In this document: piece by piece, positions 57,027 through 59,287 of the stretch
How positions within the stretch are numbered: the stretch's first letter is position 1
How the letters are laid out: every line of letters starts with the position of its first letter
Assembly: GCA_016789455.1 (NCBI GenBank)
Contig: JAEUQU010000002.1
Location: forward strand, 1,054,001 to 1,118,000
Length of the DNA stretch: 64,000 nucleotides
Reading direction: 5' to 3'
From: Candidatus Saccharibacteria bacterium
GTDB taxonomy: Bacteria > Patescibacteriota > Saccharimonadia > Saccharimonadales > Saccharimonadaceae
Made by a program: the position numbers and the translations under genes
Notes under the pieces: model-generated
What the model was told of the DNA's origin: nothing
Database searches by the model: none
What the model saw: only the letters and a program-made list of their open reading frames with translations

Positions 57027-57192
57027 CACCCGGCAAGATAAATCGCTCGCGGGCTCGCTCATGCTAACCTGCCAACACTCGTTGGCAGGGCAACGCCCGA
57101 ACTTTCTTTGAAAGTTCGGATCTTGACGAGTCAGACCAAGAAAAATATCCCTTCTTTCGAAGGGATATTTTTCTTGGTACACCCGGCAAGAT
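57027..57192. mobile_element. tRNA-3'-end element 1 (at tRNA-Arg)
   Basis: A 13-bp direct repeat of the tRNA-Arg 3' end (CACCCGGCAAGAT) occurs at 57027-57039 and inside the tRNA at 57180-57192. Between them: a 19-bp perfect hairpin (57136-57177) that includes the tRNA CCA, a CCGAACTTTC / GAAAGTTCGG hairpin, and the conserved core 57061-57101 (ATGCTAACC, GCCAAC / GTTGGC hairpin, GGGCAACGCCCGAA). Shares this layout with element 2. No protein is encoded. Confidence 0.6.
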
Positions 57193-57251
57193 TCGAACTT
57201 ACGACCTTTGGCTCCGCAAGCCAACGCTCTATCCAGCTGAGCTACGGGTGC
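57175..57251 (-). tRNA. tRNA-Arg(GCG)
   Basis: 77 nt including CCA. Acceptor GCACCCG / CGGGTGT, D-arm TAGCTCAGCTGGATAGAGC, anticodon loop TTGCGGA (GCG), T-arm AGTTCGAATCT. Its 3' end is duplicated 153 bp away. Confidence 0.95.
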
Positions 57252-57380
57252 ATAGTGGCTTTGTCTCCGACTCCTTCAAGAAGCAATCTTCGACTCAGCC
57301 ACGTCGCTAATAACAGAAGGTGCTTCCCGCTTAGAGCAGAACAGGGGTAATTATAACACACCCAATTGCAATATGTATAG

Positions 57381-58043
57381 CTAAAATCGCAAACGGCGCA
57401 TTATTCGGTCGATGAGGTCTTCGTGGAACTCTTCCATGGGCAGTACTGAACCGAGAATATCGACAATCTGTTCGCCTTCTGCATCTGAAAAACGGATGGA
57501 TATACCGGGGGCGACCTTCTTGACAGGGCGAAAGATGGCCAAGTACATATCTTCGTCCGGCAGAATGCCGAATGAGCGGTAGCGGTGCAGGTCGAAGAGC
57601 TTATCGCCCACCTGCACGGTCGTGGGCGTCAGGCGGTAACTGATCCGGCGGGGCGGGTGGGCCGCAAAGAAACCCAAGGTAACGCCCATAATGACCAACA
57701 GGACGGCAAAGAGGTACTGTTGCAGGACGACGGCACCGATTGTCAGCACCAGCGTGACGGCGCCAAGCACCATGAACCAAGCCGGTCCTTTGGAGTGATA
57801 GGCATATTCCTCGGCATCCCAGACGAATGCGCCGTCTTCTGCGATAGTGCCACCTGCCTGACCGGTTATGACCTGAGGCTCCTCTGGCTCGGGGACCGGC
57901 TGTAGAGCATCAGTCTGCTGCGGTTGCGGTGCGGCGGCCGGTTGTGGTACCTGCTGCACCGAAGGCAAAGCCTGCGGGCCTGCCGGTGCCGGGGCGGGTT
58001 GGTCGGGCTGCGGTGGCAGGGGGGTGGGTGCTTGCGGGTTCAT
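57381..58043 (-). CDS. Two-helix membrane protein with a Pro/Gln-rich N-terminus
   Basis: 220 aa. Disordered N-terminal ~65 residues (PQAPTPLPPQPDQPAPAPAG...), then two membrane helices (WFMVLGAVTLVLTIGAVVLQQYLFAVLLVIMGVTLGFFAAH) and a C-terminal PH-like cytoplasmic part (RRISYRLTPTTVQVGDKLFDLHRYRSFGIL ... IVDILGSVLPMEEFHEDLIDRIMRRLRF). Resembles conserved CPR membrane proteins without assigned function. TATAAT lies ten bases upstream of the ATG. Confidence 0.65.
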   Translation of the reverse strand: MNPQAPTPLPPQPDQPAPAPAGPQALPSVQQVPQPAAAPQPQQTDALQPVPEPEEPQVITGQAGGTIAEDGAFVWDAEEYAYHSKGPAWFMVLGAVTLVLTIGAVVLQQYLFAVLLVIMGVTLGFFAAHPPRRISYRLTPTTVQVGDKLFDLHRYRSFGILPDEDMYLAIFRPVKKVAPGISIRFSDAEGEQIVDILGSVLPMEEFHEDLIDRIMRRLRF

Positions 58044-58118
58044 ACTGGATTTTATTATAGCATTGGTTTGGCTTAAACGTTTTGGGATGGGGAGAGATTT
58101 TAGGACATTACACTAGCA

Positions 58119-58314
58119 GGAGGAGGGGAGATGTTACGCTTCGCGGTGCGAAGCGTATGCTAACCCCGCCAACTCTTGTTGGCGGGGCAACGCCCGAAAT
58201 CCCGCGCGTGCGGCTGGCGCCGCATTGGCGCGGGAGTTCAGATCTTTAATCCGAGGCAAGAAAATAGAGTAGGTTTGAATACCTACTCTATTTTCTTGGC
58301 GGAGGAGGGGAGAT
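58119..58314. mobile_element. tRNA-3'-end element 2 (at tRNA-Ser(GCU))
   Basis: Direct repeat GGAGGAGGGGAGAT of the tRNA-Ser 3' end at 58119-58132 and 58301-58314. In between: an 18-bp perfect hairpin (58257-58298) ending at the tRNA CCA, a long GC-rich hairpin (around 58196-58240), the conserved core 58157-58198, and a TACGCTTCGC / GCGAAGCGTA hairpin next to the outer repeat. Core stem pairs differ from element 1 by compensatory changes. Confidence 0.6.
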
Positions 58315-58389
58315 TCGAACTCCCGCGCCAGGTCGCCCCAGCCTAACGATTTAGCAAACCGTCCCCTTCAGCCACTTGGGTACTCCTCC
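58297..58389 (-). tRNA. tRNA-Ser(GCU)
   Basis: 93 nt with CCA. Acceptor GGAGGAG, anticodon loop TTTGCTAAA (GCT), long variable arm, T-arm GAGTTCGAATCTC. Its 3' end is duplicated 182 bp away. Confidence 0.95.
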
Positions 58390-58474: not shown

Positions 58475-59287
58475 TTACCGCGAATAGGTAAATGCCGACG
58501 CAGGAATATTAACCTGCGTTCCAGCGGGCGGTGTCCAGTCGAGCGCGGCCGCCGCGCTGCCCGCATTTTCATACATCTCGTAGACGATAGGGTATTGCTG
58601 GCCGGCATTCAGGCTGATGGTGCCTGTACGGGTAGCATGCTGATCAATCCATTGGTTGATGATGAGCGTGCCGTTGACCCAGACCCGCACTCCATCATCA
58701 GTGAAAGCATGGAAAGTGTAGCTGCCGGTCGACGGTGCCGTCACCAGCCCGGTCCAGCGGACTGAATAGCCATCAAGCGGAATACCTGGCGCAGCGACGT
58801 AGGCATTGCCCCAGTCATAACTGATACTGGGTTCGATACGCGAAACAGTCGGCGTGCCAGAAAGGGTCATATTGGTGTAGTACTGAGCAACCAGCCCAGC
58901 ACCCTGACAAACACCTTCGGCGGCCCCTGCATTATGCTTAATATAATATTGCAACGATCCGAGTGTGTAGTCGAGGCAATAGGAGGGCGGACTGACGGTA
59001 TTGTTGGGCACGTAGTTGACGGTCGCGCCCTGCGTGACGGTTACGCCGCGACCTCCGTTCGAAGCAGCTAGTGTCGCAGGATATGTTTCTCCGGTAGCCA
59101 GATCGGAGGCGAGCTGCTTGGCGGCACTTTTCAGATCACTGATAAGCGCGTTTCGACGGGCCTGGTCTTGAGCACGTGCGAAAGAAGATATGGCGATGAC
59201 CGCCAAAATGCCAATGACGACAATGACGATCAGCAGCTCGACGATAGTGAAACCCCTGGCCTTACGGTACCGTGGAAAAGTTTTCAA
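58475..59287 (-). CDS. Type IV pilin fused to a PA14 domain
   Basis: 270 aa from a TTG at 59287 (GAGGTGG upstream). Prepilin leader MKTFPRYRKARG cleaved before FTIVELLIVIVVIGILAVIAISSF with Glu5. A pilin body of ~110 residues is followed by a PA14-like beta domain (GLVAQYYTNMTLSG ... YSVRWTGLVTAPSTGSYTFHAFTDDGVRVWVNGTLIINQW ... YEMYENAGSAAAALDWTPP). PA14 domains bind carbohydrates in many adhesins. A surface adhesin for host recognition is plausible. Confidence 0.88.
   Translation of the reverse strand: MKTFPRYRKARGFTIVELLIVIVVIGILAVIAISSFARAQDQARRNALISDLKSAAKQLASDLATGETYPATLAASNGGRGVTVTQGATVNYVPNNTVSPPSYCLDYTLGSLQYYIKHNAGAAEGVCQGAGLVAQYYTNMTLSGTPTVSRIEPSISYDWGNAYVAAPGIPLDGYSVRWTGLVTAPSTGSYTFHAFTDDGVRVWVNGTLIINQWIDQHATRTGTISLNAGQQYPIVYEMYENAGSAAAALDWTPPAGTQVNIPASAFTYSR

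Follow-up and report, generated by a model that had tools for sequence, protein, structure and literature searches.

Mobile DNA classically inserts at tRNA genes, and the genomic islands integrated at them use tyrosine integrases, with the T-loop as a sublocation of the insertion. To our knowledge, the mobile elements described at tRNA genes depend on a defined integrase, either their own or a borrowed one, and retain a single core. Tiny, palindromic and protein-less mobile DNA is also a known kind. Rickettsia palindromic elements are bacterial palindromic repeats within functional genes, mostly in-frame in protein genes; we know of no tRNA-derived copies in them. Nor do we know of a description of elements that occupy the loops of tRNA sequence and carry both direct and inverted copies derived from their target, and a search of the literature found no report matching such elements. 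In the parts of the literature available to us, REP/REPIN sequences are short, protein-less, hairpin-bearing and present in many copies, and are thought to be moved in trans by RAYT (Y1) transposases (PMC3116915, PMC6006769). The GC clusters of yeast mitochondria, according to the available part of their account, have flanking repeats of 2-3 bases and are mostly intergenic (PMC4478555).

Two units that differ from all of these lie in the window, a stretch of 64,000 nucleotides from a Candidatus Saccharibacteria genome of 1.44 Mb (G000). In the preliminary description, the neighbouring genes for tRNA-Arg(GCG) and tRNA-Ser(GCT) had each been reported to be followed by a short element with the same order of motifs, closed by a copy of that tRNA's own 3' end (13 and 14 bp, respectively). 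The sequence and ARAGORN predictions bear this out: the repeat-to-repeat spacings of 153 bp (Arg) and 182 bp (Ser) are correct, and at both loci the direct copy starts at the ATC immediately 3' of TTCGA. A 14-mer is common to both units (57088-57101 and 58185-58198), as are the GCCAAC/GTTGGC hairpin and ATGCTAACC. The exact 14-mer occurs twice genome-wide, both times in the window units, and is absent from all 100 relatives searched. The only ORFs that overlap the units (~150-180 bp) are short (at most 80 aa), and no integrase gene was found within the units.

Two components extend this picture: in its middle, each unit has the 3' half of its own tRNA in inverted copy (D'), and what closes the unit is the latter part of a direct copy that is split in the T-loop. 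Read in the sense of the tRNA, the intact tRNA is followed by a hairpin (hp1), by D' and by the direct copy, which is interrupted in its T-loop by a core of ~60 nt in the window units and of ~60-95 nt across the three core families (A, B and C) treated below (Table 1). For the Ser unit, the split copy reads GCGCGGGATTTCG / core / ATCTCCCCTCCTCC, and the uninterrupted tRNA sequence reads GCGCGGGAGTTCGAATCTCCCCTCCTCC. Since hp1, which starts at the CCA and includes a T-run, differs at each locus and appears to be terminator-like, it is not the signature of the element; a terminator scan did not flag hp1 of the Arg unit, presumably because its T-run lies inside the stem.

Table 1. Components of the Arg and Ser units, in window coordinates
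Feature	Position	Strand	Remarks
Intact tRNA-Arg(GCG)	57175-57251	-	ARAGORN; Rfam tRNA, 67 bits
hp1, Arg unit	57136-57177	-	Long perfect hairpin from the CCA, with T-run
D', Arg unit	57112-57135	-	Inverted, partly decayed copy of the tRNA-Arg T-arm/3' half; score 30.5 for own tRNA vs maximum 22.5 for other tRNAs
Split direct copy, 5' part, Arg unit	57098-57104	-	AAGTTCG; seven bases, weak taken alone; also the 3' arm of hairpin P2 (57097-57119)
Family A core, Arg unit	57040-57097	-	Hairpin P4 at 57070-57087
Split direct copy, 3' part, Arg unit	57027-57039	-	tRNA nt 59-71; ATCTTGCCGGGTG, present inside tRNA-Arg(GCG) at 57180-57192
Intact tRNA-Ser(GCU)	58297-58389	-	ARAGORN
hp1, Ser unit	58257-58298	-	
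D', Ser unit	58226-58247	-	Inverted copy of the tRNA-Ser T-arm region, AAAGATCTGAACTCCCGCGCCA; score 33 for own tRNA vs maximum 20 for other tRNAs
Split direct copy, 5' part, Ser unit	58195-58207	-	GCGCGGGATTTCG; in the tRNA GCGCGGGAGTTCG
Family A core, Ser unit	58133-58194	-	P4 at 58166-58185 and terminal hairpin
Split direct copy, 3' part, Ser unit	58119-58132	-	tRNA nt 59-72; ATCTCCCCTCCTCC, present inside tRNA-Ser(GCT) at 58301-58314

The association of such copies with their own tRNA was quantified across the genome. When the last 22 nt of each tRNA were compared with the 320 nt downstream, own-tail direct copies of at least 13 nt were found at 6 of the 44 tRNAs, versus a mean of 0.075 (maximum 1) after tails had been swapped between tRNAs; upstream of the 44 tRNAs, the number of such copies was zero. 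Inverted own copies scored best, among the tRNAs compared, at 8 of the 44 tRNAs, with ~1 expected. Across 26 downstream elements, the own tRNA is the best match of D' in 18, among the tRNAs compared, and the match peaks over nt 53-61, a peak that is partly due to T-loop sequence shared by every tRNA. Compared with dinucleotide shuffles, folded units show greater stability, with MFE z-scores of -4.0 to -6.6 (Arg unit, -4.0 and -4.2 on the two strands; Ser unit, -5.3 on the plus strand).

Pattern and model searches revealed further copies of the core, besides those at Arg-GCG and Ser-GCT, at Val-GAC, at Asp-GTC and, as a remnant, at Arg-CCG; cores of this family A at different tRNAs are 68-87% identical in pairwise comparison. 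The core downstream of tRNA-Val(GAC) is accompanied by a 16-bp own copy. A core at 946.7 kb of contig C2 has as its left repeat 18 bp of tRNA-Asp(GTC), which lies 9.4 kb off; tRNA-Asp is separated from its downstream unit by a mobile element that encodes a 516-aa large serine recombinase (C2:946849-956231), inside which a diverged family A core (E4) is found. The left repeat being the tRNA-Asp 3' end, with a serine-recombinase element lying in between, we reject gene cassettes as an explanation for the copies at C2:946-948 kb. All cores lie at tRNAs except the one inside the mobile element; an abundance of non-tRNA sites, which the preliminary description had named as speaking against its reading, was not found. 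A second core family, B, is represented at Gln-CTG, Gln-TTG and Tyr-GTA, and by a truncated copy at Leu-TAA. Local template switching at the terminator and T-arm hairpins, with cores as by-products and nothing mobile, has in its favour that fold-back synthesis is expected to leave a direct-inverted-direct pattern and that hp1 is locus-specific, and it is extremely improbable given that homologous, structured cores occur at unlinked tRNAs as well as across many genomes.

Several further observations concern the same genome. The serine-recombinase element on C2 is composed of two modules in tandem whose att-like ends are related, and one module has a Schlafen/AlbA_2 gene. A sixth, weak match to the family A model (24.6 bits) is located at C2:949535-949579, after a 325-aa ORF and near tRNA-like sequence. 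Own-tRNA direct or inverted copies are found downstream of tRNA-Phe and tRNA-Trp, with cores unlike those of families A and B. At C1:69794-75271, a reverse transcriptase domain is present in a 450-aa ORF less than 6 kb from a large serine recombinase and tRNA-Pro(TGG).

Many of the genomes compared are fragmented, and a subset of their tRNA loci was read; one relative provides empty sites. The 16S sequences of two members of the taxonomic family contain TM7-specific primer sites, and the group is therefore assigned to Saccharibacteria. In one genome of the same genus (G001), the Arg-GCG and Ser-GCT loci are syntenic and carry no element; the situation in which every tRNA-Arg(GCG) ortholog has the same downstream sequence and no repeat, which would have spoken against insertion, was not encountered. 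The sole element of G001 is a family B unit at a Trp tRNA, with a 23-bp own copy. Strong matches to the family A core model are confined to G000 among 295 genomes of the taxonomic family, and the covariation of family A on its own is weak. Exact family A and B patterns gave only unrelated matches and G001 when searched in IMG/VR and GTDB contigs, a collection that, for GTDB, may omit the genome of the window. In G016, which belongs to another genus, units are present at 8 of 42 tRNAs (own-tail direct copies; swapped-tail mean, 0.25). Its tRNA-Glu(CTC) is followed by two units in tandem, of which the distal one recurs at Glu-TTC with 97% identity, and the terminator beyond the tandem resembles that of the empty Glu-TTC tRNA in G000; this arrangement fits insertion between the tRNA body and its original 3' flank. 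Elsewhere in G016 (L135, 1-551), a copy of tRNA-Gln(CTG) interrupted in both the anticodon loop and the T-loop immediately precedes the intact gene; copy and gene both have a TATAAT-like box.

A third core family, C, with three hairpins, was defined on cores of G016 and G112, and its covariance model has matches in 116 of the 393 genomes of the order, some of which hold at least 10 scored copies. Both sides change in 20 of 33 base pairs among five sequences and in 30 of 33 among 44 sequences, the latter count coming from an alignment fitted to the model itself. Among the top-scoring loci, on which the context was read, most copies adjoin an intact tRNA: those on its downstream side occupy a split copy of the 3' half, those on its upstream side a partial 5' copy; at a few loci, a tRNA-like flank stands alone, with no intact tRNA within the stretch examined. 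Mapping of the flanks places the insertions mostly in the T-loop; further ones map to the D-arm/26 junction, the D-loop or the anticodon loop. Wobble and A-C combinations are equally rare in the variable pairs (24 and 23 cells), so that RNA and DNA routes are not separated; the tRNA control for this comparison is invalid, as ARAGORN brackets list no A-C pair. No match to family C was found in plasmids, phages or IMG/VR, and the model (R2) has none in G000, the best family B element reaching 15 bits (E 0.16). Families A, B and C share a common architecture and one hairpin motif, with no covariance model joining them, and could have arisen by convergence. One family C element, in G112 (L074, ~1632-1790), interrupts the T-loop of an incomplete tRNA-Val copy that is located between the 16S and 23S genes of an rRNA operon.

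The strong structure conservation of family C, together with the TATAAT-like box upstream of an interrupted copy, would also suit tRNA-linked non-coding RNAs that had been domesticated, serving for example as decoys or regulators made from an interrupted tRNA copy, after recombination had spread them and a host function had led to their retention. The patchy presence among tRNAs and genomes, the decayed copies at Arg-CCG and Leu-TAA and the complete set of intact tRNAs alongside make such a role decidedly unlikely.

The preliminary description had taken the units for a tiny, protein-less family moved in trans to tRNA 3' ends, and their ATC for the core position of a tyrosine integrase. A family of tiny, protein-less elements at tRNA 3' ends is supported by the own-tRNA sequence, the extra copies, the empty sites and the tandem accretion; conservative insertion by a tyrosine integrase is not. 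Were the units minimal attP elements integrated at the T-loop with the tRNA 3' end as core, direct repeats from the T-loop to the CCA and tandem units upstream of a distal terminator would be accounted for, and an Xer-like recombinase is available in every genome tested. A direct repeat of the tRNA 3' end is indeed present at both ends, as in tyrosine-integrase elements; there is, however, no single fixed core per family, since family A carries Arg, Ser, Val and Asp sequences. Similar cores lie at 4-5 tRNAs with different acceptor stems, most of which a fixed-core integrase would break, and neither the inverted own-tRNA copy nor the split T-arm is predicted by the att model. Family C, moreover, also occurs at the anticodon loop, the D-loop and the D-arm junction. 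The search for a matching tyrosine recombinase returned a single protein in G000, which matches the phage-integrase family and looks Xer-like, and neither G000 nor G112 has any other besides the single Xer-like one. Conservative integration by such an enzyme is therefore unlikely.

It is established that the units share an architecture, recur at different tRNAs, have empty counterparts in a relative and can stand in tandem, and that base pairs covary in family C. The units are probably protein-less mobile elements that reside in unpaired stretches of tRNA sequence, mostly the T-loop, and are moved in trans with copying of the target. Their mobility is deduced from the comparison of genomes, with the empty sites coming from a single same-genus genome. 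Like cores at tRNAs with different acceptor ends, each accompanied by own-tRNA copies, argue for target copying rather than fixed-core exchange, and the unpaired cloverleaf targets suggest insertion into a folded strand. Insertion might proceed as follows: A folded single strand, DNA or RNA, would be moved in trans by a separate factor and targeted to the loops of folded tRNA sequence. The target sequence would be copied during insertion, whereby each new unit would gain direct and inverted copies of its own tRNA, and the intact tRNA would end up next to an interrupted, partial copy of itself and an inverted T-arm copy.

As an alternative, reverse transcription of a chimeric RNA of tRNA and element, self-primed from the terminator hairpin or tRNA-primed and followed by recombination at the tRNA locus, could be envisaged: direct copies of family A start at nt 59 and the longest extend to the CCA, inverted copies directly follow the terminator-like hairpin, and the insertions are in loops of the folded tRNA. 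This route is highly unlikely, and a reverse transcriptase as the common factor is ruled out, because no reverse transcriptase domain was detected in two element-bearing genomes, G001 and G112. It is conceivable, if quite unlikely, that the inverted T-arm copy is a working part: complementary, across the point of insertion, to the tRNA target without interruption, and able to pair with either half of the split copy, it would act as a target-derived guide or splint that directs homing into tRNA loops and is renewed with each insertion; the units would then be guided mobile elements encoding no protein.

Compared with the described systems, the units resemble REP/REPIN sequences in being short, protein-less, hairpin-bearing and present in many copies, and differ in that they lie in tRNA sequence with tRNA-derived flanks, whereas REPs are dispersed repeats; on reading the family A cores, no GTAG/GGAG foot was seen, and family C has GTGA. 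With the GC clusters of mitochondria and with double-hairpin or repetitive hairpin elements they share, as far as the available parts of these accounts go, the character of tiny, GC-rich, palindromic, protein-less and structurally constrained mobile elements (PMC4478555, PMC2800124), but tRNA-specific direct and inverted copies as found here are not described for GC clusters in the part of their account available (PMC4478555). Insertion of palindromic repeats into functional genes recalls the elements of Rickettsia, and the direct repeat from the T-loop to the 3' end and the tandem accretion recall tRNA-integrated islands, from which the units differ in lacking an integrase and cargo, in the inverted target copy and in the presence of one core family at different tRNAs. 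As for the features by which MITEs are recognised, namely terminal inverted repeats of a transposase and a target duplication of fixed length, the inverted repeats of the units derive from the tRNA and the direct copies vary in length. A reading as integron attC sites seems unlikely, as by eye the boxes do not fit. In the window and its relatives, only tRNA and rRNA reached gathering scores in Rfam (cmscan, E up to 1), and no group I or II intron was found.

The units thus appear as tiny structured elements in unpaired parts of the cloverleaf, at many different tRNAs, in the reduced genomes of Saccharibacteria. If their mobility is confirmed, they would (i) offer a case in which insertion into folded tRNA sequence can be tested, (ii) add a widely distributed structured family to RNA databases and (iii) explain the tRNA fragments found near tRNA genes in Saccharibacteria.

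Between tRNA-Ser(TGA) and tRNA-Ser(GCT), the window also contains a gene whose N-terminus resembles that of a type IV pilin (58475-59287); the same tRNAs are adjacent in G001.
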